36,729 bases of DNA from Acidimicrobiia bacterium (GTDB taxonomy: Bacteria > Actinomycetota > Acidimicrobiia > UBA2766), in the NCBI GenBank assembly GCA_020850945.1, contig JADZDR010000039.1, positions 1 to 36,729 on the forward strand. The letters are read 5' to 3'. Positions 30,088 through 36,656 of the stretch are shown here, piece after piece (within the stretch, counting starts at the first letter, position 1; the number at the start of each line of letters is the position of its first letter). The notes beneath the pieces were generated by a model that worked only from the letters and a program-made list of their open reading frames with translations, was not told where the DNA came from and made no database searches. Made by a program: the position numbers and the translations under genes.

Positions 30088-31101
30088 TCACGGGGTAGAC
30101 ACGAATATGTCCTTGAGCAGGTCGAAGGACTCGAGCGCCTTGCCCGCCCCGATCACCACGGACTCGAGCGGTGCCTCCGGTAGGTGCACCGGCACGTGCG
30201 TGTCCCGGGAGAGCCGGGTGTTGAGCCCGCGCAGGAGACCCCCACCACCGGTGAGGAGGATGCCGCCCGTGAGGATGTCTTGGGCGAGCTCGGGTGGAGC
30301 GTCGCCGAGACAGTCGACGACGGCCTGCGCGATCTGGTCGACCTGTTCCTGGATCGCCTGTCTCACCTGCTCGGTCGTGATGACGACCGTCTTGGGCAGG
30401 CCGGTCATGAGGTCCCGGCCCCGGATCTCGCCCTTGAGCTTCTCGTCGACTTCGAATGCGGAGCCGATCGCGAGCTTCACACCTTCGGCGGTGCGTTCGC
30501 CGATCGCGACACCGAACGTCCTGCGCACGTAGGCCTGGATTGCTGCGTCGAAGTCGAAGCTCCCGAGCCTGATCGCCTTGAGCGTCACGATGCCGCCGAG
30601 TGAGATCACCGCGACCTCCGATGTGCCCCCACCCACGTCGACGATCATGGAGCCGAGCGGTTCGTGGATTGGCAGCCCGGCTCCGATCGCCGCCGCCATG
30701 GGCTGTTCGATGAGGTACGCGGCCTTGGCGCCGGCGCGCAGCGTGGCCTCCTCCACGGCACGCTTCTCGACTTCCGTTATCGCCGAGGGCACGCACACGA
30801 GAACCCGCGGCCGGCTGAGGCTGAACCGGCCGACTCCGGCGCGTTCGAGCACGAGGCGGATGAGGCGCTCCGTCACGTCGAAGTCGGTGATCGCCCCGTG
30901 GCGCAGGGGTCGCACGGCGACGATGTGGCCCGGCGTGCGGCCGATCATGTTCCAGGCCTCGCGGCCCATCGCGAGCACCTGGTTCGACCTCGTGTTGAGG
31001 GCGATCACGGTCGGCTCGTTGATGATGATGCCCCGCGTCTTCTCGTAGACGAGAGTGTTCGCGGTGCCGAGGTCTATCGCGAGGTCACGGGGCAACGGCA
31101 T
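30088..31101 (-). CDS. mreB: MreB actin-like cell-shape protein
   Basis: This 337-aa protein is a full-length MreB homologue. The phosphate-1 motif is D-L-G-T-A-N-T (residues 9-15), the phosphate-2 motif I-V-D-V-G-G-G-T, and the adenosine motif T-G-G-G-G-L-L-R-G-L near residue 286. MreB forms ATP-dependent filaments that guide lateral wall synthesis. The ATG at 31101 is directly abutted by GGGAGG, whereas a TTG at 31095 would have a 6-base spacing, so the true start may be the TTG. The MoaE stop (31085) lies inside this gene, so the two are coupled. MreC and MreD are not adjacent. Confidence 0.96.
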   Translation of the reverse strand: MPLPRDLAIDLGTANTLVYEKTRGIIINEPTVIALNTRSNQVLAMGREAWNMIGRTPGHIVAVRPLRHGAITDFDVTERLIRLVLERAGVGRFSLSRPRVLVCVPSAITEVEKRAVEEATLRAGAKAAYLIEQPMAAAIGAGLPIHEPLGSMIVDVGGGTSEVAVISLGGIVTLKAIRLGSFDFDAAIQAYVRRTFGVAIGERTAEGVKLAIGSAFEVDEKLKGEIRGRDLMTGLPKTVVITTEQVRQAIQEQVDQIAQAVVDCLGDAPPELAQDILTGGILLTGGGGLLRGLNTRLSRDTHVPVHLPEAPLESVVIGAGKALESFDLLKDIFVSTP

Positions 31102-31657
31102 CCTCCCTGTGGGCGTACGCGTGCTCCGGCCCCTCCTCGTGCAGGCCGGTTTCACCGTGCGCGCACAACACCCACTCGCCGTGGCCTGCGGCCCACTCAC
31201 GCTTCCAGATCGGGGCTCGCTTCTTGACCTCGTCGATGAGGTAGCGGCAGGCGAGGAAGGCCGCGTCACGGTGACCACACGCGGCGGCCGTGACGACGGC
31301 GAGGTCACCGGGCGAGAGCCGCCCCACGCGATGCAGGACGGCTGTGCGCTCCGCCCCGAAGAGCTCCTCCGCTTCTGCCGCGATCTTGTCGATGACCAGT
31401 TCGGCCACACCCGCATACGCCTCGTAATCGAGGAACTCGACGACGCCACGCGCGATCCGGTCAGGCCGGACCGACCCCACGAACACCGTCACTCCGCCCA
31501 ATTCGGGCGCCGATACGTGGGCATAGGCCTCGTCCACCCCGATGGGTGAGTTGCGCAGCTCGATGAGTCGGTGGCGCCCGGGTGGGGTTCGGGGTCCGGG
31601 ATCGGCGTCGTCGCAGCCGTCGGGATGATGGCCGGAACGCTGAACTGAATGGACCAT
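31085..31657 (-). CDS. moaE: Molybdopterin synthase catalytic subunit MoaE
   Basis: This 190-aa protein has the MoaE blocks: V-T-V-F-V-G-S-V-R, then L-D-Y-E-A-Y, H-R-V-G-R-L-S-P-G-D, V-V-T-A-A-A-C-G-H-R, and the catalytic Lys-bearing A-P-I-W-K-R-E. It joins sulfur from MoaD to precursor Z to form molybdopterin. The first 30 residues are an unusual polar extension relative to the usual 140-150 residues. The ATG at 31657 is supported by TACAAT 7 bases upstream. No MoaD or other moa gene is near; the gene runs into mreB. Confidence 0.94.
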   Translation of the reverse strand: MVHSVQRSGHHPDGCDDADPGPRTPPGRHRLIELRNSPIGVDEAYAHVSAPELGGVTVFVGSVRPDRIARGVVEFLDYEAYAGVAELVIDKIAAEAEELFGAERTAVLHRVGRLSPGDLAVVTAAACGHRDAAFLACRYLIDEVKKRAPIWKREWAAGHGEWVLCAHGETGLHEEGPEHAYAHREDAVAP

Positions 31658-31670: not shown

Positions 31671-31753
31671 CGATGAGACCCTGCGCGGTGCCGCATGCGG
31701 ATGTCTTCATGCCAGAATCGCGCCATTCTCATACACCTCTCAAGTCGAGTACG

Positions 31754-31759
31754 TAGGTT
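31754..31759 (+). promoter_or_regulatory. -10 box of htrA (leaderless)
   Basis: TAGGTT is followed by 7 bases and the ATG at 31767, with no Shine-Dalgarno. Confidence 0.45.
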
Positions 31760-31766
31760 GCCCGTC

Positions 31767-33086
31767 ATGCCGTACGACTCAGATCTCCAAGCCACGTCCT
31801 GGAACCCGACATCCGCCCCGTCAGAGGCGACAGATCCCGACCTTCCCCCCCTCCACCCCCGCTACGGCGGTGACCGGCCGGACGCACAGCCGAGCAGAGC
31901 CGAAGAGATCGCCACGGAGATCGTCCCCCCCGCGATGACTGCAGGTGTCCCCTACGGCACCGGGCACGCGAACCGGCCTGCCCCGCCCCGCCCCCCCGCA
32001 CCCGACACGAAGGCCCGCCGCGGGCCGGGCCGGGCATTCATCCTATTCACCGCCCTCGTGGCCGCCGTCCTCGGTGCCGCACTCGCGTTCGGAGCGGTGT
32101 GGATCGCCGGAGGACTCGACGACGAGACCACGGCGACGTCCCGTGACGTGGTGGAGACACCCGTGGTCGAGGACACTCCCGTGGTGAGAGCTGAAGGCCT
32201 CGACGTCGTGTCGATCTCGGAGAAGGTGCGGCCCGCGATCGTGAACGTGAAGGTCGCCACCGGCCAAGCCCAGGGCAGCGGCTCCGGTGTCATCTTCGAC
32301 AAGAGCGGTTACATCCTCACCAACAACCACGTCGTCGCGGACGCGCGCCGCATAGTCGTCCAACTCACAGACGGGCGGGAGCTCGACGCCACGGTTGTCG
32401 GCACATTCCCGGATGCCGACATCGCCGTGCTCGAGGTCGAGGGCAAGGACCTGCCGACGGCACCGCTCGGCACGGCGGCCACGCTCGAGATCGGCGCCCC
32501 GGTCGTCGCGATCGGCAACCCGCTCGGTCTCGAAGGCGGTCCCACGGTGACAACGGGGATCGTGTCAGCTCTCGGTCGCCAGGTGGGCGTCGGTGAGGGC
32601 GACCAGCTCTACGACATGATCCAGACGGACGCCGCGATCCTGCCGGGTTCTTCGGGCGGCGCCCTCCTCGACGCGAACGGCAAAGTCGTCGGCATCACGA
32701 CTGCGATCGCCGTGTCGGATGCCGGGGCAGAGGGAATCGGCTTCGCGACACCCATCGACGTCGCCCACAACGTCGCCTCACAACTCATCGAAAGCGGAGA
32801 GGTGAGGACCGCCCTGCTCGGCGTGGAAGGCACCGACTACATCGACGAGAAGCAGGGCAACAGGCCCGGCGGCGCCCTCATCACGAGGGTGGTCGCGGGA
32901 GGTGCGGCCGAGACCGCCGGTATCAAGCAGGGCGACATCGTGCTCGAGGTCAACGACACCAAGATCGACTCCATGCCCGACCTCAAGGTCGCGATTCGCA
33001 ACTTCAAGCCGGGTGAGGAGATCACGGTCAAACTGCAGCGAGGCGGTAGCACCGAGACCGTGAAGGTGACCCTCGGCGAGGCGTGA
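31767..33086 (+). CDS. htrA: HtrA/DegP-family membrane-anchored serine protease
   Basis: This 439-aa protein has a Pro-rich cytoplasmic leader, one TM segment (about 90-115), a trypsin-like domain and one PDZ domain (about 340-435). The triad is visible: His188 in T-N-N-H-V, Asp218 in D-A-D-I-A, and Ser296 in G-S-S-G-G-A-L. The PDZ domain carries G-G-A-L-I-T-R-V-V-A-G and V-N-D-T-K-I. HtrA proteases handle misfolded envelope proteins. The start is the ATG at 31767; the ORF extends a further 24 codons. Divergent from moaE with 109 bases between starts. A second protease, of Lon type, is encoded 3 kb away. Confidence 0.95.
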   Translation: MPYDSDLQATSWNPTSAPSEATDPDLPPLHPRYGGDRPDAQPSRAEEIATEIVPPAMTAGVPYGTGHANRPAPPRPPAPDTKARRGPGRAFILFTALVAAVLGAALAFGAVWIAGGLDDETTATSRDVVETPVVEDTPVVRAEGLDVVSISEKVRPAIVNVKVATGQAQGSGSGVIFDKSGYILTNNHVVADARRIVVQLTDGRELDATVVGTFPDADIAVLEVEGKDLPTAPLGTAATLEIGAPVVAIGNPLGLEGGPTVTTGIVSALGRQVGVGEGDQLYDMIQTDAAILPGSSGGALLDANGKVVGITTAIAVSDAGAEGIGFATPIDVAHNVASQLIESGEVRTALLGVEGTDYIDEKQGNRPGGALITRVVAGGAAETAGIKQGDIVLEVNDTKIDSMPDLKVAIRNFKPGEEITVKLQRGGSTETVKVTLGEA

Positions 33087-33114: not shown

Positions 33115-34131
33115 TCAGATCCCTGCGAGGCGCCTCCGCTGCGTCCGGCTGTACCCGGCTGCGGCAGCCCCGAACGCCCCCAGGACGAGAACGAGGACGG
33201 GGCGCGTCACGCGGCGGCGCCGCCGCGCACGGTCACGCTGAGCCTGGCGGTCGGCGTCACATGCGACCCGCAGGGCCATCGCATTCGTGCGCTCCGCCTG
33301 CCACCCCGAACGGCGCAGCGACGTATTCGCCACGACCACGGGACAGCGAAGTAGGGCAGCACCGGCTTCGGCCGCCTCGCGGGACCGGCCGGCGTGGCGT
33401 CGCACGGACCACCGCACGTACGCGTCGGAGGGCAATCTCACGAGGGGGCGCCGCCGCCCCGTGATCGCATCGATCTCCTCGGATGTGATCCAGCCGTCCG
33501 GTGCGACGTCGAAAGTCCCCGTGAGCCGGCTCTCGAGGACGTGGCGCACGGCAAGGGCGAGATCGCCCTCGTGGAGGAACTGGCAGGGTCCGTTCCCGCC
33601 CCGGAGCCCGATCCAGCTCTCCACTCCGAACGGCGCGGTACCGCCCGGCCAGCGCCCGACGACAGGGGCACACCGCAGCACGGTCAGGTTCATGCCGCGG
33701 TCGGCCGCGACCCCGCGCAGGCGGCGCTCGAGCTCGGCCTGGCGTTGCATGCCGAGAAGTCCCGCGTTCGGGCGGAGGAGTGCGCCGTCACCCATGGGCA
33801 CGGGGTTCGAGGGGTGAGCGCCGTACACGAACGCCGAGTCCACGAGGACGACATGGCGGGGACGGCGCCCCGTGAGCATGGCGACGAGGCGGCCGGGGTC
33901 CGGAACGTCGTTGACGATTCCCTCGAGTGGATCGTCGCCACCCGCCAGGACGACCACTGACGCATGGTCCGGCGCCGCCTCCGGCGAGAGCACGACATCC
34001 CGCCCAACCCCAAGGCACGTGATCACGGCTGTCTTCGGAGGGGTCTCCCGGCCGAGCACGAGGACGGTGTCGACTGCCCGGTTCGGGGGCGTGGCGGGCG
34101 TGTCGTTCGCACGGCTTGCGGTGGAGTCCAT
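33115..34131 (-). CDS. Degenerate SDR/NAD-dependent epimerase-like protein with C-terminal membrane anchor
   Basis: This 338-aa protein resembles extended short-chain dehydrogenases: a V-L-V-L-G start, the D-S-A-F-V-Y-G segment, and the C-terminal substrate region (F-L-H-E-G-D-L-A, F-D-V-A-P-D-G-W-I). However, the Gly-rich G-x-x-G-x-x-G NAD loop is replaced (L-G-R-E-T-P-P-K-T), and in the expected YxxxK segment (L-L-G-M-Q-R-Q-A-E) the Tyr is absent. It probably binds neither cofactor nor performs oxidation in the usual way. A Arg-rich stretch and a TM segment (about 310-330) end the protein. The ATG at 34131 is chosen; divergent from the Zincin_2-like gene. Confidence 0.72.
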   Translation of the reverse strand: MDSTASRANDTPATPPNRAVDTVLVLGRETPPKTAVITCLGVGRDVVLSPEAAPDHASVVVLAGGDDPLEGIVNDVPDPGRLVAMLTGRRPRHVVLVDSAFVYGAHPSNPVPMGDGALLRPNAGLLGMQRQAELERRLRGVAADRGMNLTVLRCAPVVGRWPGGTAPFGVESWIGLRGGNGPCQFLHEGDLALAVRHVLESRLTGTFDVAPDGWITSEEIDAITGRRRPLVRLPSDAYVRWSVRRHAGRSREAAEAGAALLRCPVVVANTSLRRSGWQAERTNAMALRVACDADRQAQRDRARRRRRVTRPVLVLVLGAFGAAAAGYSRTQRRRLAGI

Positions 34132-34190
34132 GTGAGGTCGGATGGTACGCAAACAGGGGAACACCCGAGAACGAGGGAGGGGATGCGCAT

Positions 34191-34202: not shown

Positions 34203-35348
34203 GTGACCGACATGAACCCCTTCGGGATCCCCCTGCCCCCCGACATGGACCTGTCAGGCTTCCTCACGGCCTCGAGCGGACCTGTGAACTGGGAGATCGC
34301 CCGCTTCGTAGCAAGGTCGATGGCAGGTGACGCCGAGAAGCCGCCACGTTGGACGCACGTCGAGGGCGAGTACGACGATCTCGTGCGGGCGGCGGAGATC
34401 CAGGTGGCCGAGCACACCGGCCTCGCGTGCACACACCTCCTCACACCCGTGCAGGTCGTGAGCCGGGCACAGTGGGCGACCGACCACCTCGAGGTGTTCC
34501 GGCCCCTCCTCGATCCCCTCGCCGAGAAGATGGCCGCAGGGGAGATCGAGCTCGGCGGGCAGGGGCCCGAGCCGTTCTCCAACCTCATGCGGGCGCTGAC
34601 GCCGATGATGATGGGAGCCCAAGCGGGAATGCTCGTCGGCTACATGTCGCACCACGTCCTCGGGCGCTACGACCTCCAGCTTCCCCCACCGGAAGGCGAG
34701 TATGCCCTCGTCTTCGTCGGGCCGAACCTCGAGGACGCCGAGCGGGGGTTGAACGTGATCCCCCGGGACTTCAAGTTCTGGGTCGCCTTGCGTGACGTGA
34801 CACGGGCGTTCGTCCTCGCCCAGCCCGGAATCCGTGAGACCATGCTCGACCTCATGCGGGACGTCGTGGTCACGGTCAAGGTAGATCCGGAGATGGCGGA
34901 GCAGTTCCGCGGCTTCGATCCGAACGACCCCGAATCGATGCAGCGCCTCCTCGCCGACGCCACCGGGCTCGTGAGCTCGATGGAACCGGCCCAGCGCGAG
35001 AGCATGGAGTACATGGAGGCGTTCGTGAGCCTGCTCGACGGGTACACGACCCACGTCCTCGAAGCGCTCGCGGCGGAACGGATCACGTCGCTGCGTGAGA
35101 TCGAGGATGCGATCGAGCGTCACTCCCTGGAGCGGGGCGAGATGCAGAACGCCTTCGAGGAGATGATGGGCTTCGATCTGCGCCGCGGCCTGACCGGCCC
35201 GGGACGTGACTTCTGCGATGCCGTCGTATCCATGGAGGGCATCAAAGCGCTGAATCGCGTGTTCGCAGACGCGCAGTCCCGACCCAGCCTCGACGAACTG
35301 CACAACCCCGCCGACTGGATGGCACGCACCATCGGGCGACGCGGCTGA
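34203..35348 (+). CDS. Zincin_2/DUF2342-like protein lacking the HExxH zinc motif
   Basis: This 381-aa protein resembles the actinobacterial zinc-dependent metalloprotease-like family (Zincin_2, also annotated as F420-biosynthesis-associated). The overall order is right: the opening D-L-S-G-F-L, the W-x-x-A-R block, an E-P-F-S-N-L-M-R-A-L helix with M-M-M-G-A-Q-A-G-M-L-V-G, and Y-D-L-Q-L-P-P. But at the site where the family has A-L-H-E-V-T-H the sequence reads A-L-R-D-V-T-R (Arg197, Asp198, Arg201), so both His ligands and the catalytic Glu are gone. It is probably a non-catalytic member. The GTG at 34203 is chosen from the -10 box at 34191; ATG 34212 is possible. Divergent from a degenerate SDR. 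Confidence 0.82.
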   Translation: MTDMNPFGIPLPPDMDLSGFLTASSGPVNWEIARFVARSMAGDAEKPPRWTHVEGEYDDLVRAAEIQVAEHTGLACTHLLTPVQVVSRAQWATDHLEVFRPLLDPLAEKMAAGEIELGGQGPEPFSNLMRALTPMMMGAQAGMLVGYMSHHVLGRYDLQLPPPEGEYALVFVGPNLEDAERGLNVIPRDFKFWVALRDVTRAFVLAQPGIRETMLDLMRDVVVTVKVDPEMAEQFRGFDPNDPESMQRLLADATGLVSSMEPAQRESMEYMEAFVSLLDGYTTHVLEALAAERITSLREIEDAIERHSLERGEMQNAFEEMMGFDLRRGLTGPGRDFCDAVVSMEGIKALNRVFADAQSRPSLDELHNPADWMARTIGRRG

Positions 35349-35384: not shown

Positions 35385-35687
35385 TCAGTCGGCCGTGTCC
35401 GGTACGAGCCCGCACGCCGGACAGGGTTCCGGGTCCCCCCAATGGTGGAAGAGCAGCGTGTCACATGCCGAGCAGATGACGATTCCGCATGCGGCGCCCG
35501 AGCACACCGAGCAGCGCGGGGAAGTCCGTACGCGACCCGGTACCGACCTGACGAGGGAGGGGGGGACGACCACGTCATGGCCACAGCGGCTGCAGAACCA
35601 GACGACCTCCGAAAGCGCCCCCTCATCGAACATGCCTGTGTGTTTCGGCACCTTCACCTGCACATCCTCGTCCGACAAAGTGGACAC
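35385..35687 (-). CDS. Zinc-ribbon protein with nine cysteines
   Basis: This 100-aa protein has four CxxC pairs: Cys32/35, Cys59/62, Cys72/75 and Cys89/92, plus Cys67. Each pair sits in a zinc-ribbon context (W-F-C-S-R-C-G, P-R-C-S-V-C-S, I-C-S-A-C-D, P-C-P-A-C-G). Two zinc-binding sites are likely. Small proteins of this kind serve as nucleic-acid or protein-binding adaptors, but no family is recognised. The ATG at 35687 is taken, with an unclear Shine-Dalgarno. It is followed on the same strand by the gene end at 35385 and is convergent with the Zincin_2-like gene. Confidence 0.75.
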   Translation of the reverse strand: MSTLSDEDVQVKVPKHTGMFDEGALSEVVWFCSRCGHDVVVPPSLVRSVPGRVRTSPRCSVCSGAACGIVICSACDTLLFHHWGDPEPCPACGLVPDTAD

Positions 35688-36197: not shown

Positions 36198-36656
36198 ATG
36201 GCGATCGCGACAGGCGAAGTGGCACCGGACTTCACGCTCGTGGACCAGGACAAGAACGCCGTCACACTCAGCGACTTCCGGGGCAGCCGCAACGTCGTGC
36301 TCGTCTTCTACCCCTTCACCTTCACGGGGATCTGCGAGAGCGAGGTGTGTGCTCTGCAGGACGATGCCACCGAGCTCGCCGGTCTCGATGCCGCGGTCCT
36401 CGCCGTGTCCGTCGACTCGCTCCACGTGCACAGGAAGTGGGCGGAGGAGAAGGGCATCGGGTACCCGCTCCTCGCCGACTTCTGGCCACACGGCGAGGTG
36501 GCCCGCACTTACGGCGTCTTCAATGAAGACCTCGGCGCGGCCGAGCGGGGCACCTTCATCATCGACAAGGCGGGAGTGATCCGCTTCGCCGAGCACAACC
36601 CGCCGGGTGAGCGCCGCGACGTCGAGGCCTACGCCGACATCCTGCGGGGACTCTGA
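36198..36656 (+). CDS. ahpE: AhpE/PrxQ-type peroxiredoxin
   Basis: This 152-aa protein reduces peroxides. The peroxidatic motif P-F-T-F-T-G-I-C gives Cys46 in the P-x3-T-x2-C pattern. A second Cys51 (C-E-S-E-V-C) lies five residues on, the spacing of PrxQ-type atypical 2-Cys enzymes, whereas mycobacterial AhpE usually works with one Cys. The later R-G-T-F-I-I-D block carries the conserved Arg that stabilises the thiolate. It is cytoplasmic; the partner (thioredoxin or mycothiol system) is not encoded here. GGACGGAGG lies about 7 bases before the ATG. The stop is within the window. Confidence 0.94.
   Translation: MAIATGEVAPDFTLVDQDKNAVTLSDFRGSRNVVLVFYPFTFTGICESEVCALQDDATELAGLDAAVLAVSVDSLHVHRKWAEEKGIGYPLLADFWPHGEVARTYGVFNEDLGAAERGTFIIDKAGVIRFAEHNPPGERRDVEAYADILRGL

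Follow-up and report, generated by a model that had tools for sequence, protein, structure and literature searches.

An RDxxR sequence at the HExxH position of an acidimicrobiial Zincin_2 protein, and repeated loss of the motif in its paralogue branch

INTRODUCTION

What becomes of a protein of a metallopeptidase family when its metal-binding motif has gone: does it decay, is it rebuilt as another kind of enzyme, or is it kept for a task that needs no metal? The question is raised by a gene in a 36,729-nt stretch of DNA from an Acidimicrobiia bacterium (GenBank assembly GCA_020850945.1, contig JADZDR010000039.1, forward strand; the whole stretch is hereafter "the window"). Its product (hereafter "the window protein") belongs to the Zincin_2 family (PF10103, DUF2342) and carries RDVTR in place of HExxH.

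Family libraries call these proteins putative hydrolases or zincin-like metallopeptidases. A 2013 survey found HExxH in only 43% of DUF2342 members and, in its statement on such families, judged protease function to be most likely conserved (PMC3650047). A Haloferax screen for hypochlorite tolerance also names a DUF2342 protein in one of its supplementary lists (PMC6267482). Bulk motif loss in DUF2342 is already known; in the openly licensed PMC literature, we found no published account of motif loss in the TIGR03624 subfamily, to which the window protein is best matched, and neither the concentration of loss in one paralogue, nor its repetition, nor the RDxxR state was found in print.

MATERIALS AND METHODS

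Zincin_2 loci were collected from a class-wide search (matches in 344 of 395 genomes), a class search by the other paralogue (45 of 60 genomes), a search of the phylum by TIGR03624 profile (54 of 80 genomes), and fetched regions. Removal of 27 duplicates from the resulting 197 loci left 170 distinct proteins, and the tree of these 170 rows was built without the motif columns and without column 279. The order of the window organism was sampled by four genomes, all of one family. Handles beginning with G, C, L, and f denote our genomes, contigs, loci, and families. Residues are numbered as in the window protein.

RESULTS

The window protein is a full-length Zincin_2 protein without HExxH

The gene (Table 1) reads through as an open frame, with GTG at 34203 and an in-frame ATG at 34212. 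Its 381-residue product matches the PF10103 profile at 227.2 bits (gathering cut-off 25) over profile positions 1-344 of 344. The best NCBIfam match is TIGR03624, a "putative hydrolase" subfamily (212.8 bits, cut-off 136.05), and the second best is TIGR03883, the coenzyme-F420-associated subfamily (196.6 bits, above its cut-off of 171.35). The tree places the protein in the TIGR03624 paralogue branch (110 rows, SH-aLRT 99). The place of TIGR03883, the intact paralogue with a tilS-type neighbour, is filled by the genome's own second copy: of the two Zincin_2 genes in this genome, the other lies on contig C64, has the motif HEVTH, and adjoins a PP-loop (tilS-type) gene. A report on the mycobacterial dacB operon likewise has a Zincin_2 gene paired with tilS (PMC6435803).

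Table 1. Features of the locus, in window coordinates
Feature	Position	Strand	Basis
MreB-family protein, start codon unsure	30088..31449	-	same conserved neighbourhood
HtrA-type serine protease with PDZ domain, GSSGG site	31695..33086	+	syntenic in the TIGR03624 branch (same strand, upstream)
Divergent neighbour, ortholog of NAD-dependent epimerase/SDR-like protein	33115..34164	-	syntenic in the TIGR03624 branch
Zincin_2 (PF10103)/TIGR03624 protein, 381 aa, motif-less paralogue	34203..35348	+	profile matches
RDVTR (residues 197-201) at the HExxH position	34791..34805	+	codons cgt gac gtg aca cgg; alignment
Asp279 in place of a conserved Glu, likely third ligand	35037..35039	+	conservation and site in long helix 262-293 (inferred)
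R327 ... L330 T331, where the intact paralogue has K, Q, Y (59/60 rows)	35181..35195	+	alignment columns
Small protein, several CxxC pairs, by eye resembling a zinc ribbon	35385..35687	-	beside the gene in G001 (39% identity) and G002 (50%)
AhpC/TSA peroxiredoxin, often near the gene in the branch	36198..36656	+	profile match, synteny

The only solved-structure relative found by sequence is 3cmn, from Chloroflexus aurantiacus, with the motif HEMTH. The phmmer alignment sets "lrdvtraf" of the window protein beneath "lhemthaf" of 3cmn, free of gaps at the motif, and a scan of the whole protein finds HExxH nowhere else. An earlier note on this DNA, made from the sequence alone, had read the HExxH positions as Arg197, Asp198, and Arg201, and the alignment bears it out. 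The window protein thus has RDVTR where a zincin-type zinc metallopeptidase is recognized by HExxH. Residue 279, which from its conservation is likely the third ligand, is Asp. Zinc binding and proteolysis are probably absent in the window protein.

An AlphaFold2 model of the window protein (mean pLDDT 89.2) places residues 197-201 in a helix spanning residues 187-205, and residue 279 in the long helix. The best match of the model in the PDB is 3cmn (VIA-align Z 30.1, 2.8 Å over 290 residues; Foldseek E 1.7e-11), followed by E. coli aminopeptidase N (Z 8.8-9.2). The model of the other paralogue likewise matches 3cmn best (Z 28.9); its next matches, at Z 9.0-10.1, are two Colwellia proteins, a lipoprotein and an aminopeptidase, and a leukotriene A4 hydrolase. 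These matches of predicted structures fit a gluzincin ancestry of the Zincin_2 fold. The window protein resembles 3cmn in its full-length profile match and its predicted fold, and differs from it in having RDVTR where 3cmn has HEMTH, and in having Asp279. That the remainder of the protein is conserved, as the earlier note also held, agrees with the full-length PF10103 match and with the structural invariants, which are kept.

Within the sample, RDxxR occurs in one genus only

The sister species of the same genus (L004, genome G002; QWHP01000165.1, MAG "Actinobacteria bacterium ATB1", Actinomycetota) has a protein 74% identical to the window protein, with the motif RDVIR; a scan of genome contigs by the window protein gave this one relative. 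Sequencing error is unlikely because this separately assembled species shares the change. In two other genera of the family, the motif is HEVVR (L005, genome G001; 52% identity) and HEVIH (L006, genome G003; 47% identity). Position 279 is Asp in the window protein and the sister species, and Glu in both other genera. His150, His151, His284, and Cys338 are common to all four family proteins.

The RDxxR proteins form a clade of their own, a possibility that the earlier note had raised, and the clade is small, comprising the two sampled species of one genus (support 100/98). In the best tree, the HEVVR protein falls outside a group of the HEVIH protein and the RDxxR pair (95/85), and therefore the second His would have been lost twice separately. 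A single stepwise path from HEVIH through HEVVR to RDVxR does not fit this tree; a topology that unites the three motif-less rows passes the AU test (p-AU 0.23).

HExxH has been lost repeatedly in one of two paralogues

The tree of actinomycetotal Zincin_2 proteins splits into two paralogues, A (60 rows) and B (110 rows, including the window protein). When rows were scanned singly, the best NCBIfam match was TIGR03883 for 3/3 A rows and TIGR03624 for 7/7 B rows; in a profile scan of 67 members, all matched both subfamilies. In paralogue A, HExxH is present in 59/60 rows and Glu at position 279 in 59/60, in a sample made up mainly of the top hits obtained with this genome's own copy and with a family profile, a choice that may favour intact proteins. 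In paralogue B, whose rows were at first those most similar to the window protein in a ranked match list and were then extended with 20 lower-scoring and with phylum-wide rows, HExxH is present in 39/110 rows and HExxH together with Glu279 in 34/110. The 71 B rows without HExxH show 28 patterns, the commonest being RExxH (19 rows); RDxxR occurs in 2/110, the window protein and its sister species. The earlier note had framed the loss around the window protein, to which it is not peculiar: with 71 of 110 sampled B rows lacking HExxH, the informative unit is the whole TIGR03624 branch rather than its RDxxR variant.

Parsimony over the whole tree requires 17 state changes of HExxH. With loss treated as irreversible and the root placed between the paralogues, the count is 21 losses, 20 of them in B, or 16 losses with weak branches pooled. 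The window protein shares with TIGR03624 as a subfamily the best NCBIfam match and membership of the motif-less majority in the sampled branch, and is set apart from it by RDxxR, found only in its genus. It shares with TIGR03883 the fold and the family; TIGR03883 differs in keeping HExxH and Glu (59/60), in its tilS-type neighbour in this genome, and in having no HtrA, SDR, or MreB nearby. Most of the TIGR03624 branch is probably not protease at all.

Several rows merit separate mention. The sole motif-less A row (L176; G427:C1:865563-866591) has the sequence TQLTS and sits on the longest branch in the tree. Four rows (L079, L085, L097, and L180) combine an intact HExxH with Val or Ile where the third ligand is likely to lie, and the motif alone is therefore no marker of an intact site. 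Finally, genomes of ~1 Mb in family f5 are almost all without a Zincin_2 match (the 20 misses listed are all f5, and one f5 match was found at 8e-4), indicating that both paralogues are dispensable.

Constraint has moved off the active site

The NG86 dN/dS between the window gene and its sister-species counterpart is 0.193, a rough figure from one pair with dS ~1. It lies within the ranges found for motif-less pairs (0.056-0.214, with a value in 7/8) and for intact pairs (0.050-0.224, 8/8). The gene thus has an open frame and a low ratio, where a pseudogene would show a broken frame or relaxed selection.

Compared with A, B shows constraint moved off the active site and no general decay. Specifically, columns 330, 327, 331, 205, and 197 are among those with the largest rises in entropy from A to B, and conservation of Gly26, Pro27, Pro134, Gly138, and Pro161 is higher in B. 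Gly142, Gly146, and Pro361 are retained in 71/71 motif-less B rows. Glu198 persists in 99/110 B rows, a higher share than expected of a site with no use at all.

Co-decay of other positions with the motif was considered and rejected: for Lys327, Gln330, Tyr331, Phe205, Gly334, and Glu279, raw counts lie in the expected direction, and none is significant in independent pairs (by median p). Tyr331, for example, is present in 33/39 intact and 25/71 motif-less B rows by raw count, and its association with the motif is not significant in independent pairs (4.9 vs 1.0 of 11, median p 0.22). Gln155 and Asn175 show no association with motif state.

B genes often lie near HtrA, SDR, and MreB genes

In 40 B contexts, picked by hand from match lists and in several cases running to contig ends, an HtrA gene was recognized at E<=1e-40 in 21, each time on the same strand as the B gene and upstream of it, and in 29 at 1e-5 with PDZ-Lon_C proteins included; an SDR gene is present in 21, always on the opposite strand; an MreB gene is present in 19; and none of the three is present in 4/40. 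In some actinobacterial B contexts, a PDZ protein with a Lon_C domain (3/3 such proteins scanned) takes the place of HtrA. In loci of ~4 kb at E<=1e-5, HtrA is found near 10/32 and SDR near 12/32 B genes, and HtrA, SDR, and MreB are found near A genes in 0 of 53. This synteny marks most of the B branch as a single orthologous group.

At several loci (L047, L048, L049, L209, and others), the Zincin_2 gene directly adjoins the HtrA gene, both on one strand, and their frames touch or overlap, an arrangement that suggests an operon. By reading of sequence, HtrA is membrane-anchored and the Zincin_2 protein has neither a signal nor a membrane helix, and for this reason a direct contact between the two proteins is not obvious. 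The gene content of the B neighbourhood hints at an envelope module.

For the SDR-like neighbour in the window, a Pfam threshold as loose as E 1 yields no relevant match, and its orthologs match PF01370 Epimerase strongly (L042, 9e-28; L200, 4e-19). The N-terminal, nucleotide-binding half of this neighbour looks degraded; on this reading of the sequences, the two adjacent genes, Zincin_2 and SDR-like, may both encode pseudoenzymes. The small CxxC protein on the other side of the gene has no Pfam match.

DISCUSSION

We consider it probable that the window protein is a pseudoprotease, kept by selection for binding or scaffolding. In this explanation, the gluzincin-like Zincin_2 domain would stay folded and no longer bind a catalytic zinc, and selection would retain it for a non-catalytic task. 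Across the TIGR03624 branch, constraint on the active site has relaxed and other positions have tightened, HExxH has been lost many times over, and RDxxR with Asp279 is the state of one genus. The earlier note had likewise proposed a retained, non-catalytic role rather than decay: of its two halves, retention stands, on the open frames in both species, the low dN/dS, and the kept invariants, and the non-catalytic role is one that we infer. Against extending the pseudoprotease reading to the whole branch, 39/110 B rows keep HExxH, and activity may persist in part of the branch. A partial parallel is provided by the Arabidopsis FtsHi pseudo-proteases, which as described are likewise retained metalloprotease paralogues (PMC8197885); they are chloroplast membrane AAA+ proteins, and we claim no homology.

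The alternative to which we give most weight, while still thinking it unlikely, is that Arg197 and Arg201 stand in for the charge of the zinc, holding the acids at positions 198 and 279 as a salt-bridge core that cross-links the fold without metal. Among the 71 motif-less B rows, Arg or Lys at either 197 or 201 is associated with an acidic residue at 279 (36 and 5 vs 12 and 18 rows; Fisher p 3e-5), and His to Arg changes are over-represented in substituted HExxH sites generally, as stated in the 2013 survey, where ADAM and CLCA members, from other families, show the same recurrent HExxH substitution (PMC3650047). When relatedness is counted, however, the association is not significant (1.8 pairs for and 1.1 against, of 7). 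Charge replacement was accordingly rejected as a rule, its strong raw association being lost in independent pairs, and is kept as a rival. Less likely again is a protein that is still an enzyme with a rebuilt site, either another metal site or a metal-free hydrolase made from other residues of the same pocket. Residues that could be pointed to are His150, His151, His284, and Cys338, present in all four family proteins, and the acid that persists at positions 198 and 279; however, the four residues are also present in the HEVIH relative, hence did not arise as replacements, and Lys327, Gln330, and Tyr331 are lost too. The mycobacterial protein MAB_3501/Rv3195, which we take to be a member of the TIGR03624 branch in the motif-less state, also bears on a rebuilt enzyme. 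In Mycobacterium abscessus, this "putative hydrolase" was captured by a beta-lactone probe, and the authors read it as a hydrolase target; the match is, however, one row of a proteomics table and concerns a distant member (PMC12101465).

Decay of the gene toward a pseudogene has very little probability. Several active-site columns are indeed lost together, but frames are open in both species, selection is purifying, and structural invariants are intact, as they also are for motif-less members throughout the phylum. The chance that the substitution is an artefact of metagenome assembly or alignment is smaller still and close to nil: both genomes of the genus are draft assemblies (97 and ~590 contigs), but the two assemblies agree at the four positions, and the local alignment to 3cmn is gap-free.

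What a pseudoprotease would do here can be proposed tentatively. The window protein could be a cytoplasmic protein that binds or scaffolds within an envelope module concerned with quality control or growth. The envelope reading is suggested by the linkage of B genes to those for proteases (HtrA or PDZ-Lon_C), for an SDR-like protein, and for a member of the MreB family; we regard this assignment as doubtful. A broader and similarly speculative proposal, which we would not favour over its negation, is that TIGR03624 comprises phylum-wide pseudoproteases: early after the duplication, the paralogue would have taken on a non-catalytic envelope task together with SDR, MreB, and a PDZ protease, which is HtrA or, in other actinobacteria, PDZ-Lon_C, and the zinc site would then have been free to decay ~20 times independently. 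If this were true, the remaining HExxH members of TIGR03624 would be relics and not active enzymes, and "hydrolase" would be a misnomer for the entire group.

The TIGR03624 branch as a whole is probably misnamed. If the pseudoprotease reading is right, naming as hydrolase or metallopeptidase, and the judgement of the 2013 survey, would be mistaken for most of one of the two actinobacterial paralogues, including many cases outside this lineage. With its many independent losses beside intact sisters, the TIGR03624 branch is a natural experiment on a protease fold without its chemistry.
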